This document shows positions 56,694-64,000 of a stretch of 64,000 nucleotides of DNA, piece by piece. The stretch's first letter is position 1, and each line of letters opens with the position of its first letter. The DNA is taken from positions 806,001 to 870,000 of the forward strand of contig CALHBJ010000001.1 of assembly GCA_937930845.1 (NCBI GenBank), written 5' to 3'. The position numbers were made by a program, and so were the translations under genes. The notes below the pieces were generated by a model. The model made no database searches. It was not told the DNA's origin and saw only the letters and a list, made by a program, of their open reading frames with translations. This DNA is from an uncultured Rhizobiaceae group bacterium (lineage in GTDB: Bacteria > Pseudomonadota > Alphaproteobacteria > Rhizobiales > Rhizobiaceae).

Positions 56694-56768
56694 GCCCGGG
56701 TAGCTCAGGGGTAGAGCAGCGGATTGAAAATCCGCGTGTCGGTGGTTCGATTCCGCCCCCGGGCACCA
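56694..56768 (+). tRNA. tRNA-Phe (anticodon GAA)
   Basis: 75 nt cloverleaf. The acceptor GCCCGGG pairs with CCCGGGC, with discriminator A and encoded CCA (56766-56768). The D-loop region is GTAGCTCAGGGGTAGAGC, the anticodon stem GCGGA/TCCGC encloses TTGAAAA (anticodon GAA at 56726-56728), and the T-loop is GGTTCGATTCC. It follows yacG and marks the change from conserved to accessory-looking genes. Confidence 0.97.
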
Positions 56769-57083
56769 TAAAATCAATTGTTCCCCGTCAGCGTCTTCAA
56801 TGCCTTCAAACGGCAAAGAAACGCGGCGCGATGGGCGCGGCTATTTTGCGGTGTTCCTTACCCTCAAAAGGAGACATGCGAGAAGTGGTTGGCCGTCACT
56901 TGTCGGTTTCAAACGACAGCTCAAAAATGAAGTCCGAGCCTATTCGGTTTGCCAATTTACTGGGCGTCTATATCATGGGCTTGATGAGATTTGCGTTGAT
57001 GGTGGTTTAGCGTTGGTGCGTATGCCGGCTTCCTGTTCTTGATCTAAAGGGAGACTCAATTTGATCGTGAGTATTCGCCCGTG
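56769..57083. other. Gap between tRNA-Phe and the carrier-thioesterase gene
   Basis: About 315 bp. It holds a weak 44-codon frame (ATG 56876 to TAG 57010, hydrophobic C-terminus, GGAG only 2 nt before the ATG). It also holds a seven-codon frame MIVSIRP (TTG 57061 to TGA 57082-57084) with a strong AAAGGGAG site, whose stop overlaps the next gene's ATG. No integrase fragment or repeat of the tRNA 3' end was seen. Confidence 0.5.
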
Positions 57084-58352
57084 ATGGAGCAAAACAGAGG
57101 ATATATTGCGCGCCATGATTTGGGGCTGCCCAACATTTTTGTTCGACCCACCAGCCCAACTGAAAAATCAGTCGCTGACATTTGGCGCAAAGAACTCAAC
57201 TTAGACGCTGTTGGCCTGGATGATGATTTTTTCAATTTAGGTGGCGACTCCCTTTCCGCTGCCAATATTGCTGTGGCGATCAGCGATGAGTTTAAACGTA
57301 AATTCGAACCAGCCATGCTTTTTGAGCGGCCCACCATTCGCGACATATTGGATTGGAATGATGGCGCGCAACATGAAGGCGCAACCCTACCGAATTGTCT
57401 TCTTGCGTTGAAATCATCCGGCAGCTTGCCCCCTGTGTTTCTCATTCATGGCCGAAGCGGATTGTTGTTTCCCAAGCCAAACTTCATGGCAGGGTTCGAT
57501 CCGGCGCAACCTGTTTACGCATTTCAGGCACCTGGATATGACGGATCGATGGAACCGCTGGAGGAAATTGAAGCAATTGCCGAGGAATATTTGCGCGCAA
57601 TGTTGCTGGTTCAACCGTCAGGCCCTTGGTTTATTGGTGCATTCTGCAATGGCAGCTGGATTGCTGTTGAGATGGTCCGACTGATGGAGTCCCAAGGACT
57701 GAATGCGCAATCTGTAACTCTGTTAGACCCCGGTGCTCTCAACGGCGAAATGAGAGAGGCGTACAAGGCAAACAAAGGGCTTGTTTCGGGATTGGGTCTT
57801 CCCGTTGTTTCGCCAGTGGCTGCTCAATTGAAGCGTTCCTATTTTTGGTTTTCCAGAAGACTGAACTGCCTTTGGCACACAGGGCGCTGGAAAGACTTTA
57901 AGTCCCGTGACGCCTATGCATCACCTCCCGTTGCGAAATGGATCACCCAACGGCGCGCCGATCAAGCCAAGAAACTGTCGCGGCGTGTTTTGCGTGAAGA
58001 TGCTGAAAATAAATATCCGGAACTGCGCAATTCTCAGGACCTGCATTCAGTCTGTGAAAACTTTTCTAGCGCTTCTGCAGCTTTTGCACTGGCAAAAATG
58101 CAAACCGCATTTTGGAACCACAATCCAAAAGAACCAAGTGACTTTGAATATGATCTCGTCGTGAGCGCATCCAGACACAACGAATTGCGCGACCCAGATC
58201 ATCCGATAAACTTGATAATGAAGAACGCGCGGGTCATTCAGTCTGGCGAAACCCATATTGAGACCGTGGGTGCTTACTCCGCGCAAAACTCGAAATTTAT
58301 TCAAGAGAAGGTGTTTAAGTTCGGGACGACCGAGAATGATCTTGAAAGTTGA
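57084..58352 (+). CDS. Free-standing peptidyl carrier protein fused to a Cys-type thioesterase (NRPS-like)
   Basis: 422 aa. Residues 22-92 are a phosphopantetheine carrier domain (EKSVADIWRKELNLDAVGLD, then FFNLGGDSLSAANIA; Ser56 accepts the arm). Residues 115-420 are an alpha/beta-hydrolase thioesterase: PVFLIHGRSGLLFP, YAFQAPGYDG, and the nucleophile elbow WFIGAFCNGSW. There Cys188 replaces the usual Ser; Asp in VTLLDPGAL and His in SGETHIETVG complete a triad. This is the terminal half-module of a nonribosomal peptide synthetase standing alone, with no condensation or adenylation domain. Cys thioesterases occur in some NRPS systems (for example beta-lactone-forming ObiF). Its stop/start overlap with a mini-ORF suggests coupled translation. 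The substrate is unknown. Confidence 0.85.
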   Translation: MEQNRGYIARHDLGLPNIFVRPTSPTEKSVADIWRKELNLDAVGLDDDFFNLGGDSLSAANIAVAISDEFKRKFEPAMLFERPTIRDILDWNDGAQHEGATLPNCLLALKSSGSLPPVFLIHGRSGLLFPKPNFMAGFDPAQPVYAFQAPGYDGSMEPLEEIEAIAEEYLRAMLLVQPSGPWFIGAFCNGSWIAVEMVRLMESQGLNAQSVTLLDPGALNGEMREAYKANKGLVSGLGLPVVSPVAAQLKRSYFWFSRRLNCLWHTGRWKDFKSRDAYASPPVAKWITQRRADQAKKLSRRVLREDAENKYPELRNSQDLHSVCENFSSASAAFALAKMQTAFWNHNPKEPSDFEYDLVVSASRHNELRDPDHPINLIMKNARVIQSGETHIETVGAYSAQNSKFIQEKVFKFGTTENDLES

Positions 58353-58404
58353 GGCCCCCAAAAAATCTAACCGCTATTCGCGATTGCGGGGCTCCAGATT
58401 GGTC

Positions 58405-59880
58405 TCAGCGAGAGCGTGAAAACATTTCTTTCAACTGATATTTCATAACCTTCCCCATGCCGTTTTTTGGCAAACTATCGACTGTTACGATGTGTCGGGG
58501 GCATTTGTCGGAGGGCAATTGCGTTCGAACATGGCCGGCGATCAGATCTTGATCAAAATCCTTGTACTTCACAACGAAGGCGACAATTTCTTCACCCAGC
58601 AAATCATCTGAAACCCCAACGACTGCCACTTCATGGACGGCGGGCAGTTGATTGATGCAATTCTCAATTTCCTGCGGATACACATTGGCGCCACCACGAA
58701 TGATCAGTTCAGAGTTTCTGCCTGTGATCGTCAGAACATTGTCGTCACTCAGCACCCCGATATCTCCTGGAATCGCCCAGCCATCGACAATACGATCCGA
58801 GTTGTGACTGCTGGAACCCACAATCGCCTGGGCCATCGCCGGTCCACGGACTTTGATTAAACCTTCTTGCCCCCTTGGGACAGGATTGCCATCAGGGTCG
58901 GTGATTTCAATATTGTTCAATCCCAACACATATCCAACCGAGTCTGGTATGATCTCGTTGTCGGCACCGAAAAGCTCTGAAACCAAACCTGTCAGGCTGG
59001 ACGCATAGTTCATTTGATAATTGTTGGACAATTCGCGGTAGGATCTTTGGTTTTCCTCTGCGTTTGTGGGTCCGCCCCCGTTTATGAGCGACCGCAGGCC
59101 CGATAAAACTGGCTCTTTGCTGCCTTTGGATTCAGCCAAAAGCTCACGCAATTGCTTGGGCACAACAAAGAGTTTGTCCGCGGATGTGCTGTTCACCGAT
59201 TCAATGAGTTGAGATGCGGTTGCAAAAAAAGACATTATGTGAACGCAGCCGCCCTGGAGTAATTGCCCCAGAGCCTTGTTAAATGGGGCTGCAAAATTCA
59301 ACGGTTGTGCAAGCAATAAAGTGCCCCCAACGCTCGTGTGTTTTCCAGATTGCTCAAGGAGATTACGTGCCAAAATTGTGTTGTGGCCCCGTTGAATTCC
59401 CGTTGGCTCTCCAGTGGTCCCCGATGTGAGCATGATCATGGCCGGATGGCCGCTATTGTCCGGTTGGAACGGAAGTGTTGGCATCTTCGATACGCGCTCA
59501 AGCCAATTTTGGTCTATATCAAGAGCCTGATAATTTGCAGCCCCTGAGGGTTTAACATCTTGAATTATTGTTCGGATATTGAACTTCTTCGCCATCTTGT
59601 CTCGCTGCTCACCGCGCAGTCGAAAGTCGAGATTCACCATCACAGCTCCGACATTCCACAGCGCAATTGTGGTGGCGATTAATTCTATAGGTGAGCGGAT
59701 AGCAAGACCGACACGATCACCGGACACGATACCTTCCTCACGCAGCAATTGCGCGATCTGAAAAGACCGGGCGTTCAATTGACGATGGGAGATACGATCA
59801 GCCCCGGCAACAATCGCTGGATGATCGCTCATCCGATTGGCCATACCCTTATAGCAATCAGCCAGGTTGATATTCTGCAT
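58405..59880 (-). CDS. AMP-forming acyl-CoA ligase / adenylating enzyme (ANL superfamily)
   Basis: 491 aa. AMP-binding core MIMLTSGTTGEPTGIQRGH; core 5 is the unusual NYASSLTGL; GWAIPGDIGVL has Pro where Thr is usual in the TGD box. The hinge/C-domain GRNSELIIRGGANVYPQEIE follows, and the catalytic lysine is in LPKNGMGKVMKYQLKE. It adenylates a carboxylic acid and passes it to CoA or possibly to a carrier protein. It faces the carrier-thioesterase gene end to end (52-bp gap), so pairing of the two is an inference from position. ATG 59880 is used; the upstream TTG 59889 is less likely. It is divergent from the TRAP genes. Confidence 0.87.
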   Translation of the reverse strand: MQNINLADCYKGMANRMSDHPAIVAGADRISHRQLNARSFQIAQLLREEGIVSGDRVGLAIRSPIELIATTIALWNVGAVMVNLDFRLRGEQRDKMAKKFNIRTIIQDVKPSGAANYQALDIDQNWLERVSKMPTLPFQPDNSGHPAMIMLTSGTTGEPTGIQRGHNTILARNLLEQSGKHTSVGGTLLLAQPLNFAAPFNKALGQLLQGGCVHIMSFFATASQLIESVNSTSADKLFVVPKQLRELLAESKGSKEPVLSGLRSLINGGGPTNAEENQRSYRELSNNYQMNYASSLTGLVSELFGADNEIIPDSVGYVLGLNNIEITDPDGNPVPRGQEGLIKVRGPAMAQAIVGSSSHNSDRIVDGWAIPGDIGVLSDDNVLTITGRNSELIIRGGANVYPQEIENCINQLPAVHEVAVVGVSDDLLGEEIVAFVVKYKDFDQDLIAGHVRTQLPSDKCPRHIVTVDSLPKNGMGKVMKYQLKEMFSRSR

Positions 59881-59967
59881 TTTTACCAATCTATTGCGTG
59901 ACTTACCAGCTGTGTATATTCAAGAAGCTGCAGGGATACAAATTCTTCACGCGAGAGGCTGTAAATC

Positions 59968-60930
59968 ATGATCGTTCGATATGGTGCATCTGTACTGATG
60001 CTGATCTTCGGGATTTCACTTGCGCAAGCAGAACCCGTCTCGTTTGGATCGGCTCGCGTGGGATCGACCACCCATTCAGTTTCTGTCGCCATTGCCAAAG
60101 TAGTGACCACAAACTCTCAGTTGGACATACGTGTTGTTCCAATGAAAACCCCCACCCAGGTGTTACCGAGGGTCGCGACCGGCGACATGATGATCGGAAC
60201 GGCAGGCGCAGTTGAATTGCAGTTGGCACGAGCTGGCGAAGGGTTTTTTCAAGGCAAGGCCATGGACAACCTTGTAGCGGTCGGAAACATTTTTCCATTC
60301 AGAATGATGTTTGCAAGCCGGACGACTTTGGATGCCAACGATATCTCGCAATTGTCCCAAAAATCAGTACCGCGTGGCTTTAGGGCAACGTCAACTGGCG
60401 AGTTACTGATGCGTGCGCTTATCAGTGGTGCAGGTCTGGAATTGGACGGTGTAAATTCAGTTCCCGTCACCGGCTTTCCGGGCGGTCGAGATGCATTCAA
60501 ATCAGGCCTGGTCGAAGTCATGCCGTTTATTGTCGGTACTCCTCAAATGGTGAAAATGGAAAAGGTCGTTGGCCCGATGAAGGCATTGGGGTTGCCGGCG
60601 GGTTTGGATGTTGATGAACGGGTGCGCTCTGTCCATCCTGCTTTCCGTGTGGTGGATGTGGATGTGGATGTGGATGCTGACCCAAAGTCATTTGGCCAGG
60701 AAGGGGCGTTGCGCGCGCTCGCCTATGATTATGTACTTTATACCCGCAAGGATGCACCAGACGATCTGGTGACGTCACTGGCAACTGCGCTGGTCGAAAA
60801 TCATAAGGACATGGCAAAGTCTGTGCGGGCATTTCGCAACCTGGAAATGGAACGTGTGGCGCTCGAAATCGGCATTCCATTCCATCGCGCTGCGGTCAAA
60901 GTGTATCGTGAGAAAGGCTTGCTTAAGTAG
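59968..60930 (+). CDS. TAXI-family TRAP transporter solute-binding protein
   Basis: 320 aa. Signal peptide (MIVRYGASVLMLIFGISLAQA, ending before EPVSFGS). The body has the TAXI pattern: GSTTHSVSVAIAKVV, TPTQVLPRVATGDMMIGTAG and LPAGLDVDERVRSVHP. TAXI proteins capture organic acids (glutamate, 2-oxoglutarate or others) for TRAP importers. Residues 229-236 are a Val-Asp repeat coded by a four-unit hexamer. The membrane subunit gene follows 9 nt later. Confidence 0.88.
   Translation: MIVRYGASVLMLIFGISLAQAEPVSFGSARVGSTTHSVSVAIAKVVTTNSQLDIRVVPMKTPTQVLPRVATGDMMIGTAGAVELQLARAGEGFFQGKAMDNLVAVGNIFPFRMMFASRTTLDANDISQLSQKSVPRGFRATSTGELLMRALISGAGLELDGVNSVPVTGFPGGRDAFKSGLVEVMPFIVGTPQMVKMEKVVGPMKALGLPAGLDVDERVRSVHPAFRVVDVDVDVDADPKSFGQEGALRALAYDYVLYTRKDAPDDLVTSLATALVENHKDMAKSVRAFRNLEMERVALEIGIPFHRAAVKVYREKGLLK
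60652..60675 (+). repeat. Four-unit GTGGAT hexamer inside the TAXI gene
   Basis: Four perfect GTGGAT units, in frame, encode (Val-Asp)4. Slippage would change the number of Val-Asp pairs without a frameshift. Confidence 0.85.
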
Positions 60931-60939
60931 GCCTGTGCT

Positions 60940-62847
60940 GTGGATACAACGAGCGGCAGGCCCACCAAAACAGCGACGTCCATTTTAGCTACGTGGCTGA
61001 GTTTTCTCATAGTCACACTTCCATTTTTAGCAGCCGTAGATCCAAGCGGGCTGTTTCAACGCTACGCGCTTCAAGAACAGTTCCTCATCGTCGAGCTGTC
61101 GATGGCAATGTGCCTGGTGCTTTGGAAACAAAACGCTAGTGACGGCAACCAACCTGTCAGCCTGTTGAACTGGTGGCTGGGAATTATTGCGCTTACCATG
61201 GGGATGTGGGCGACCGTTCGATATTCTGACTATGGCCATGGCTTTGCGACCTATTGGGAGGAGCCAGTCGCAATCGCCGTCATACTGACACTTCTCACTT
61301 TAGAGTGTGTCCGTCGATATGCGGGTTTGCAGATGATGTGCCTCATTCTGGTCTTCATACTGTATGGCTTTTTTGGCCAATATCTCGGTGGCTGGCTGTC
61401 GGTTCCGGCAGTTTCGGGATCAAGTTATGCCACTTACCTGGTTTTTGGCGGGGATGCTCTTATTGGCCGGGCATTGGCAATAATTGTCACAATAGTGAGC
61501 ATATTCATTCTATTGGGCGGCCTGTTTGAACTAGCAGGCGCGACAACGTTCATAAAAGATTTGGCTGTGCGGCTGACGAGTTCCAGCCGTGGCGCACCCA
61601 TTAAGGTTGCTATTCTCTCGTCGGGACTTATCGGGTCCATCATAGGTTCAACAACGTCCAACATCATGACATCGGGTCACTTTTCCATGCCCATGATGAA
61701 GAAAATGGGGCTTCGCCCAAACGAATGCGCAGCAATTGAAGCTGTGGCGTCGACCGGTGGGCAACTGACCCCTCCTGTCATGGGCTTTGCCGCATTCCTG
61801 ATAATCGACATTGCTGGAATTTCTTACTCAACCCTCATCATCGCTACTCTTCTGCCATCAATCCTGTTTTATTTTTCATTGTTTGTGCAGGCAGATCGGA
61901 TGGCCGCTCAACGCGACAACCTTCAACATCCCCTGGCAAGCATCGTCTCCAATGAGCAATTGATTGTTGGATCGATCCCCATCGTTGTAATTTTTGCAGC
62001 GCTCTTGATCGCATTTTGGAGCAATCCATTTGCGCCCGAACAGGCAGCAGCAATAGGCGCCACTGTCGCATTGGTGTTTGGCGTTTCAAGGATTGTGAAA
62101 ACGCAAAGCAGCTTCAAGCAGATTCTTGAATCAATCACGGCCGCTGGAAGATCGGCAGCCGGTGTGATCGTCATTGCAGCAGGGATTGGTATCATTCTTG
62201 GCGTTATTAATTCGACGGGTCTGGGAGTTGCGCTTGCAATTGCTGTGAGCAATGCGGCGGCAGGGAGCTTGCTGGCCGGATTACTTCTGGCGGCGTTGGC
62301 CAGCTATATTTTGGGCATGGGTCTGGCAACGGTGGGCGTATATGTCATCGTGGGAACCGTGGTGGCTCCCATCCTGATTGACCTTGGCATCACGCCAATC
62401 GCAGCACATCTTTTCGTCTTTTACACCGCCATGTTGTCGATGATTACACCACCCGTCGCCATTGCCTGCGTGGTGGCCAGCGCGATGGCGGGCGCTCAGT
62501 TCCTGCCCACGGCGTGGTTTGCGGTCAGGTTTGGTTGGATTAAATTTGTGCTTCCGTTCCTATTCGTTTACTCGCCCTCACTTTTGCTTGGCAATGGAAC
62601 CTATCTTGATAGCGCCATCACGTTATCTTCGATGCTGGTCGCCATCGTTCTTTTCACCAATGCCACAAGTGGGTTTGAAAAAGCACGGATACCCATTGCC
62701 ACCCGTGTCATCTACTTCTTGCTTGCCCTCATATTGCTGTTTCCAATAGTTGATCCGTTCGTCAAAAGCGTGATGACATTATGCCTTGCGGCGTGGATAT
62801 TCCGCGCCAGTATTTTGAGACAATGGCGTATTTTTCAAAGGCGGTAA
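60940..62847 (+). CDS. TRAP transporter fused membrane subunit (DctQM type)
   Basis: 635 aa polytopic protein. It is the fused 4TM-12TM TRAP permease that usually partners TAXI proteins. It begins with GTG. The first helices include ATSILATWLSFLIVTLPFLA. The large-subunit signature GSIIGSTTSNIMTSGHFSMP, then EAVASTGGQLTPPVMGFAAF, lies near residues 230-290. It imports the TAXI-bound acid, driven by a sodium or proton gradient. The ligand is not determinable. Confidence 0.92.
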   Translation: MDTTSGRPTKTATSILATWLSFLIVTLPFLAAVDPSGLFQRYALQEQFLIVELSMAMCLVLWKQNASDGNQPVSLLNWWLGIIALTMGMWATVRYSDYGHGFATYWEEPVAIAVILTLLTLECVRRYAGLQMMCLILVFILYGFFGQYLGGWLSVPAVSGSSYATYLVFGGDALIGRALAIIVTIVSIFILLGGLFELAGATTFIKDLAVRLTSSSRGAPIKVAILSSGLIGSIIGSTTSNIMTSGHFSMPMMKKMGLRPNECAAIEAVASTGGQLTPPVMGFAAFLIIDIAGISYSTLIIATLLPSILFYFSLFVQADRMAAQRDNLQHPLASIVSNEQLIVGSIPIVVIFAALLIAFWSNPFAPEQAAAIGATVALVFGVSRIVKTQSSFKQILESITAAGRSAAGVIVIAAGIGIILGVINSTGLGVALAIAVSNAAAGSLLAGLLLAALASYILGMGLATVGVYVIVGTVVAPILIDLGITPIAAHLFVFYTAMLSMITPPVAIACVVASAMAGAQFLPTAWFAVRFGWIKFVLPFLFVYSPSLLLGNGTYLDSAITLSSMLVAIVLFTNATSGFEKARIPIATRVIYFLLALILLFPIVDPFVKSVMTLCLAAWIFRASILRQWRIFQRR

Positions 62848-63048: not shown

Positions 63049-64000
63049 CTATCCTGTGAACAACGCTGCAAGGCGGTTTTTCAAGCTGTTTTTGGCGGGC
63101 GGGGCATGGGTTGGTTCCTGGAAGAATGAATCGCAATGGATACGTTCATCCGACAGGCCTTTTGTTTTTGCGACCAATTTTACAGCATCCACCATCTTTG
63201 TTGGGCCTGCAGTGTAGAGGCATCCATCGGGCAAATTTCCGAAATCTGCATCAAATGCCTGATGCACAAAACCTGTTCGATATCTGGGATGGCCCGCCGG
63301 TTCGGAGAGAACGGCGCTGATGCGGACCTTGTCATGATCCGCTGACAGTCTTTCAAGATCGGTTTTGGCATAGAGATCCGACTGATCTCTCACACCATGA
63401 TAAAGATAAATGTCTCTGGCCGGATTGCCCTTTAACGACGCCTTGATGATCGACAGGATTGGCGCCAGACCCGTTGCCCCTGCGACAGCGAGCAAGGGGC
63501 CTGTTTTGTCCGCGCGAAGATAGGAAGCTCCAAACGGCCCCTCAATCTCCACCATATCATCGGGTCGCAACTTGCTGCCAATATATCCACTGACGCATCC
63601 CCCTTCGACAAGTGCAATGTGAAGTTCAATCGTGCTGGTGCCCGGCAGGTTCGCCATGGAATATGATCTGGGTGGCAGATCACCGATCCGCAGACGCAGA
63701 TACTGGCCCGCCGCGAATTCGAGCGGCTGACCGACCGGCTCAATCACGAGTCTTACAACCGTGCGCGACACCTTATCCAGACTAAGGACAGATGCTTTGA
63801 TCTTTCGCCTTTGAAAACGAGCCGCATATTCGTCACCCAGCCACCGGATTTCCAAATCGGTTATGGGCTGGCTGCGACACGCCAGTATGATATTTTCCGC
63901 CCGCTCATCGGCGCTCAGGGCATCGGAAAGGCAGGGATATTGCCTGACCCTCCCCTTCAGCAGTTGAGTCTTGCATTCGCCGCAATCGCCTGACCGGCAT
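63049..64000 (-). CDS. Ferredoxin-FAD-NAD(P)H oxidoreductase (oxygenase reductase type), N-terminus missing
   Basis: The minus-strand frame is open to the right edge, so the N-terminus is lost; 316 codons remain. At the edge it reads CRSGDCGECKTQLLKG and, about 30 residues on, NIILACRSQP: the plant-type 2Fe-2S ferredoxin cysteines (C-x4-C-x2-C...C). An FAD domain follows (FAAGQYLRLRIGDLPPRSYS), then an NAD domain (LLAVAGATGLAPILSIIKAS; CLYTAGPTKMVDAV). This is the layout of BenC/Rieske-oxygenase or monooxygenase reductases. The oxygenase gene is probably just outside the window. A downstream TTG (63855) could be misread as the start, but the 2Fe-2S part argues against it. Confidence 0.88.
   Translation of the reverse strand, partial: CRSGDCGECKTQLLKGRVRQYPCLSDALSADERAENIILACRSQPITDLEIRWLGDEYAARFQRRKIKASVLSLDKVSRTVVRLVIEPVGQPLEFAAGQYLRLRIGDLPPRSYSMANLPGTSTIELHIALVEGGCVSGYIGSKLRPDDMVEIEGPFGASYLRADKTGPLLAVAGATGLAPILSIIKASLKGNPARDIYLYHGVRDQSDLYAKTDLERLSADHDKVRISAVLSEPAGHPRYRTGFVHQAFDADFGNLPDGCLYTAGPTKMVDAVKLVAKTKGLSDERIHCDSFFQEPTHAPPAKNSLKNRLAALFTG

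Follow-up and report, generated by a model that had tools for sequence, protein, structure and literature searches.

Can a carrier domain joined to nothing but a thioesterase, together with a lone ligase, do the work of a one-module nonribosomal peptide synthetase (NRPS)? The question is raised by two genes in a stretch of 64,000 nucleotides from an uncultured Rhizobiaceae group bacterium (contig CALHBJ010000001.1, positions 806,001 to 870,000, forward strand), which is referred to here as the window. An earlier prediction made from the letters alone (the original prediction) had proposed that the two proteins are a minimal NRPS-like pair. Comparative genomics confirmed that the peptidyl carrier protein-thioesterase (PCP-TE) and the ligase form a conserved unit. 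The original prediction as a whole is partly supported. The pairing stood, but the ligase is nearer to acyl-coenzyme A (CoA) ligases than to NRPS adenylation (A) domains, and a transporter beside the pair had been overlooked. The product classes that it named (a simple ester, amide, thioester-hydrolysed acid, or lactone) are conjectural. The reading preferred here, with a probability of about 0.57, is a transporter-coupled minimal NRPS-like module in which import of an acid would be followed by loading of the PCP and transfer by the TE to an acceptor other than water. The four genes concerned are the following.

57084-58352, plus strand: PCP-TE, a stand-alone carrier-thioesterase of 422 amino acids (aa) from the ATG (open reading frame; Pfam PP-binding and Thioesterase; AlphaFold2 model with a predicted local distance difference test score, pLDDT, of 88.8)
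58405-59880, minus strand: stand-alone ANL ligase, 491 aa from the ATG (open reading frame; Pfam AMP-binding and AMP-binding_C; model pLDDT 87.6)
59968-60930, plus strand: TAXI-family TRAP solute-binding protein (TIGR02122 above cut-off; PF16868)
60940-62847, plus strand: TRAP fused permease (TIGR02123 above cut-off; PF06808)

The coordinates and sizes of the PCP-TE and the ligase agree with those of the original prediction. The open frame of the PCP-TE starts at 57081, ahead of the ATG. Its Pfam scores are 8e-16 for PP-binding and 7e-12 for Thioesterase, and those of the ligase are 6e-45 for AMP-binding and 2e-18 for AMP-binding_C. The two genes are convergent with 52 nucleotides between them. 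The solute-binding protein and the fused permease, both above their NCBIfam cut-offs, make up a TAXI-TRAP transporter (59968-62847).

The evidence for the pairing comes first from the distribution of the two genes. Among 101 genomes (that of the window and 100 relatives), full-length PCP-TE matches were found in the window's genome, G033, and G053, and close ligases (E <= 1e-60) were found in exactly the same three. A search for co-occurrence in other genomes, as the original prediction had advised, was extended to 394 genomes of the family, which matching named contigs suggest is Rhizobiaceae. The ligase was present at E <= 1e-110 in nine, all of which fall among the 13 genomes with a stand-alone PCP-TE. 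The hypergeometric probability is 1e-15, which kinship makes too small, and 3e-10 at the genus level. In this survey the best three to four candidates per genome were scored and absences are no proof; a PCP-TE was counted as stand-alone when its open frame was at most 500 aa, and the frames of G392 (700 aa) and G125 (811 aa) were not counted. Two PCP-TE genomes outside the nine (G338 and G318) have a lower-scoring ligase adjoining the PCP-TE. No ligase was found in G313 and G243, which carry a PCP-TE and are 83% and 79% complete.

Both genes occur together in 14 loci of 11 genomes: the window, L039, L110, L111, L113, L114, L115, L116, L117, L118, L120, L125, L060, and L149. L060 belongs to a Holophagaceae metagenome-assembled genome (MAG), and L149, with the same four genes as the window, to another alphaproteobacterial family. 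The two genes are adjacent and convergent in five loci, on the same strand in six, and divergent in one (L118), while transporter genes sit between them in L117 and L149. The linkage is kept despite this rearrangement, which argues for function. There is also a natural fusion, as L160 (genome G734) contains a single frame of 855 aa with A, carrier (T), and TE domains. Among 32 class-wide loci fetched, of which seven had their genomic neighbours read by eye, a PCP-TE match was found only in L149 and L160. Co-occurrence, the fusion, and the clade of paired ligases described below rule out chance or unrelated neighbours. A scan of genome contigs with single proteins found no relative. Plasmid searches, with 25 of 132 records shown for the PCP-TE, gave mostly NRPS and polyketide synthase genes; for the ligase they gave a single Comamonas record. 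In L120 (4659-14324; G338), the pair lies between carboxyltransferase and biotin carboxylase genes.

A transporter with its own solute-binding protein is found beside 10 of the 14 paired loci, as judged by eye and by Pfam on chosen genes, without a background rate. TAXI and TRAP genes are present in six (the window, L110, L111, L113, L114, and L149), TctA-type transporters in three (L039, L117, and L118), and DctP and DctM in one (L116), where the order on one strand is PCP-TE, ligase, DctP, DctM. The order in L039 is TctC, TctB, TctA, ligase, PCP-TE, with TctB assigned solely from its place and its sequence. L117 and L118 each have a clear TctA, but their solute-binding genes had no Pfam match at 1e-6. 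At L115 the ligase frame is shortened and a fragment of DctM is present. The TAXI protein of the window had five other matches (E <= 1e-8) in the frames searched, every one in a PCP-TE locus.

The ligase itself does not look like an NRPS-type A domain. Acyl-CoA ligases are its best matches among families, PDB sequences, and folds, and feruloyl-CoA synthetase and MatB head the PDB matches; NRPS A domains match more weakly, and all NCBIfam ligase matches shown fall below the curated cut-offs. The alignment retains the P-loop (core 3), the A7 Asp, the A8 Arg, and the A10 Lys, so adenylation looks feasible from the sequence, given the usual roles of these motifs. Core 5 had been called non-standard, which was borne out by the alignments.

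58984-59010, minus strand: core 5 of the ligase, NYASSLTGL, residues 291-299, with Leu where YGxTE enzymes have Glu

The core-5 Glu (YGxTE) that marks ANL acyl-CoA ligases is thus missing from the window ligase. In a tree of 58 rows, it is absent from every one of the 16 PCP-TE-linked ligases and kept in 29 of the 38 carrier-free ligases and in 3/3 outgroup rows; the remaining row is the fusion L160. One clade (100/96) holds 14 of the 16 PCP-TE-linked rows. These are 12 of the 14 paired ligases plus those of G033 and G174, which were labeled as linked because their genomes carry PCP-TEs elsewhere. The 38 carrier-free ligases fall outside this clade. As a separate observation, tandem ligases of the same superfamily, two to four in a row, occur in L163, L174, L172, and L173 (G624, G622, G607, and G704), where the stretch examined gave no match to the PCP-TE.

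The PCP-TE, for its part, has the features of an NRPS-type carrier-thioesterase didomain, with a PCP that carries GGDS followed by an alpha/beta-hydrolase TE with a predicted Cys-Asp-His triad. The motifs quoted in the original prediction (LGGDSL with Ser56, GAFCNG with Cys188, and, in the ligase, NYASSLTGL and GDI) are all present in the sequence. The features of the protein are as follows.

57171-57356, plus strand: peptidyl carrier domain, residues 30-91 (Pfam PF00550 match)
57249-57251, plus strand: codon of Ser56 in GGDS, the predicted phosphopantetheine attachment site (invariant in 34/34 PCP-TEs)
57645-57647, plus strand: codon of Cys188, the TE nucleophile in G-A-F-C-N-G (invariant in 34/34)
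57726-57728, plus strand: codon of Asp215, the predicted triad acid, directly after the strand at 210-214 (invariant in 34/34; strand from the model)
57729-58151, plus strand: TE lid, residues 216-356, six predicted helices (DSSP on the model: no strand of at least three residues between 214 and 357)
58254-58256, plus strand: codon of His391, the predicted triad base (invariant in 34/34)

The counts come from alignment A4 of 34 PCP-TEs, in which the Ser-type TEs of L149 and L160 were not included. Such invariance makes the motifs more than a product of chance. A second set has Cys in 39 of 40 PCP-TEs, the exception (L067) being unpaired. In a profile alignment, Cys is the nucleophile in 14 of the 15 frames no longer than 530 aa vs 5 of 38 longer ones; these counts include a few genes listed under two locus ids and some frames truncated at the ends of loci or contigs.

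The best PDB matches of the TE model are AB3403 (4zxh, top by sequence and fold), EntF, and other NRPS TEs. The window TE resembles ObiF1, SulM, and AB3403 in being an alpha/beta hydrolase with a Cys nucleophile, but it stands outside an NRPS and its predicted lid of about 142 residues is larger than those of structurally characterized NRPS TEs, given as 54-101 residues in the SulM study (PMC11298585). The spacing between Asp and His ranges from 97 to 182 residues across the PCP-TEs aligned and is 176 in the window; not all paired TEs are so long-lidded. A strained-ring TE of the ObiF and SulM kind was considered and rejected. The Cys in a GxCxG motif fits, but Asp215 precedes the lid in the model, whereas the triad Asp of ObiF1 and SulM is placed after the later strand in that study (PMC11298585).

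The proposed sequence of events is as follows. The TAXI-TRAP transporter would import a small carboxylic acid. The ligase would adenylate it and load the phosphopantetheine arm of the neighboring PCP rather than CoA, a step whose two partners are shown by comparative genomics to be paired. The acyl group would then move to Cys188 and, under the large helical lid, may be passed to a hydroxyl or amine of a sugar or another small molecule, or to a second molecule of the acid. Two points favor such acceptors over water: the Cys nucleophile is conserved, and it would be futile to spend ATP on activation only to hydrolyze the acyl group again. Indirect support may come by analogy from the Cys TE of ObiF1, in which a Cys-to-Ser change led to dominant hydrolysis (PMC6668435).

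Several observations weigh against this reading. The main doubt concerns the activation of the carrier. A single PF01648 match over the cut-off was found in 8 of 12 pair-bearing genomes, that of the window included, and the enzyme in the window's genome is taken to be AcpS-like on its family signature and length. AcpS must modify the PCP, or the PCP is not loaded, unless another phosphopantetheinyl transferase, such as an Sfp-type enzyme, escapes the PF01648 model. Ser is the nucleophile in the ligase-linked TEs of L149 and of the fusion L160, which means that a Cys is not required. Two paired ligases (L120 and L125) lie outside the main clade and form another, and the fusion is a third branch. 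The fusion also keeps the core-5 Glu, and 9 of the 38 carrier-free ligases lack it; thus, loss of the Glu accompanies the carrier without being diagnostic by itself. A long distance separates the ligase from the PCP-TEs in G033 and G174. No transporter of the kinds described was seen at L120, L125, and L060 in the stretch examined, the contig of L060 being short. Some carrier-free sister ligases also adjoin transporter genes, namely TAXI-TRAP in L147 and TctC in L178, so the transporter may go with the ligase and not with the pair as such. As a side observation, at L112:9736-11061 and G229:C1:1531451-1531723 (L194) a second PCP-TE of G229 is found beside a phosphopantetheinyl-transferase match and a frame of 2,395 aa with weaker matches to the PCP-TE and ligase models.

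The alternative that survives best, although it is unlikely, is tailoring on the carrier. A redox enzyme would modify the PCP-held acid, as in the Bmp system for tetrabromopyrrole, and the TE would then free it by hydrolysis. Bmp1 is a carrier-TE didomain, and the window likewise has a separate adenylating enzyme and a carrier-TE protein. This is the nearest characterized arrangement. Bmp4, a stand-alone adenylating enzyme, loads proline onto the acyl carrier protein domain of Bmp1, and the bound proline is then a substrate of Bmp3 and Bmp2 (PMC5577590). In G033 and G174 the ligase adjoins a flavin adenine dinucleotide enzyme, that of G033 with a weak Trp_halogenase match, and the PCP-TE of L125 adjoins a gene with an Acyl-CoA_dh_2 domain. 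However, no redox gene was seen to recur across the loci, by eye on open-frame starts and by Pfam on chosen genes, and the neighbors that do recur are transporters. The window has a TRAP transporter and no flavin dehydrogenase or halogenase among the eight neighboring proteins scanned; the likeness to the Bmp system is judged by description.

It is also improbable that the pair is a split A-T-TE synthetase whose TE condenses two (alpha-keto) acids into a furanone, quinone, or lactone. The domain logic is the nearest known, since the quinone and furanone synthetases have A, T, and TE without a condensation domain (PMC9047271 and PMC10316625), and two aromatic alpha-keto acids are joined by the fungal enzymes of this type (PMC9047271). 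A one-chain relative exists in L160 only. In the window the domains lie on two polypeptides and the activating enzyme is nearest to acyl-CoA ligases. The window TE, which has a Cys nucleophile and a lid of unusual length, may be a further difference. The window pair is therefore filed as an NRPS-like minimal module that belongs neither to this kind nor to that of Bmp4/Bmp1. A literature search for TAXI or TRAP transporters combined with a carrier-thioesterase found nothing relevant, most subscription papers being outside its coverage.

Quite improbable is a catabolic role, in which the ligase would turn the imported acid into acyl-CoA and the PCP-TE would be a hydrolase that acts separately or in editing. 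The fold of the ligase is nearest to CoA ligases. Two carrier-free sister ligases have similar transporter neighbors: L147 is accompanied by TAXI and TRAP genes, with an acyl-CoA dehydrogenase and a hydrolase adjacent by eye, and Comamonas L178 by genes annotated as TctC, amidohydrolase, acyl-CoA dehydrogenase, and alpha/beta hydrolase. However, both sisters keep the core-5 Glu and branch away from the clade of paired ligases, and no PCP-TE gene was seen with either in the stretch examined (by profile for L147 and by gene table for L178). No acyl-CoA-degrading gene was recognized in the window cassette from open frames and Pfam. The original prediction would have been undermined by homologs that always act in catabolic operons without the carrier gene, and this is not the pattern found. 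Finally, a remnant of a multimodular NRPS was rejected, as the genome has no condensation-domain match (0 PF00668 matches at E <= 0.001, whole genome) and the activating enzyme is nearest to CoA ligases.

The transporter-coupled module may extend to more than one product. Nine PCP-TEs accompany a single close ligase in G033 (Flavimaribacter sediminis by contig match), and G174 (Pararhizobium sp. ih9 MAG) likewise has nine among the loci read and one close ligase. Nine paralogs for one close ligase suggest that one activated acid is handed out by several TEs with different acceptors. Genes for GT25, GT2, or other glycosyltransferases, methyltransferases, or sulfotransferases are found near PCP-TEs in G033, G053, G115, G313, and G338. 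In L061 (Aliifodinibius), a Cys-type A-T-TE protein lies amid surface-polysaccharide-type genes, and similar A-T-TE frames lie amid such genes in L062 (Pontiellaceae). These neighbors, assigned partly by Pfam on chosen genes and partly by eye and without a background rate, hint at sugar acceptors for the TE. A literature search on a link to glycan acylation found nothing. It is possible, though doubtful, that these loci represent a wider class of uptake-coupled, carrier-templated acyl transfer, with an importer, a CoA-ligase-derived PCP loader without the core-5 Glu, and large-lid Cys TEs that would serve various acceptors, possibly surface glycans. In L062 (2643-11122), three consecutive genes (886, 1058, and 886 aa) match both the ligase and PCP-TE models; two have a Cys TE, and the middle gene has about 200 extra residues in front.

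The surroundings of the pair in the window include two further features, of which the tRNA gene, like the transporter, was unmentioned in the original prediction.

59881-59967, no strand: divergent intergenic stretch of 87 nucleotides between the ligase and transporter genes (from coordinates)
56694-56768: tRNA-Phe, upstream of the PCP-TE

Ligase and transporter genes diverge from this shared stretch, an arrangement found again in L149, and in L110 the PCP-TE is divergent from the TAXI gene. These layouts suggest that the transporter shares regulation with the ligase or PCP-TE. Promoter and terminator scans gave little above shuffles, with no promoter-like match in 59881-59967. A ferredoxin-reductase-like gene is present at 63049-63999. 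The two genes of the pair have low GC content at third codon positions (0.49 and 0.52), compared with 0.53-0.66 in 16 of 17 other window genes checked and 0.50 in one, and they had no match in 14 other genomes of the genus searched, some of them incomplete. Together, these two points suggest that the pair was acquired. Insertion of a mobile element at tRNA-Phe was considered and rejected; a downstream copy of the tRNA end was not found, so no attachment site is claimed.

The pairs recur in several bacterial genera, mostly beside organic-acid-type importer genes, which points to a minimal pathway. If the preferred reading is true, this would be a minimal conserved pathway in which acid uptake, activation on a carrier, and transfer by a Cys TE are encoded side by side. 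It would also make an accessible example of a CoA ligase that has become a carrier loader and can be set against its carrier-free sisters, and of a diversified large-lid thioesterase family, with nine paralogs in one genome that has a single close ligase. The solute-binding protein would provide a direct handle on the substrate, which is missing for most orphan NRPS-like genes.

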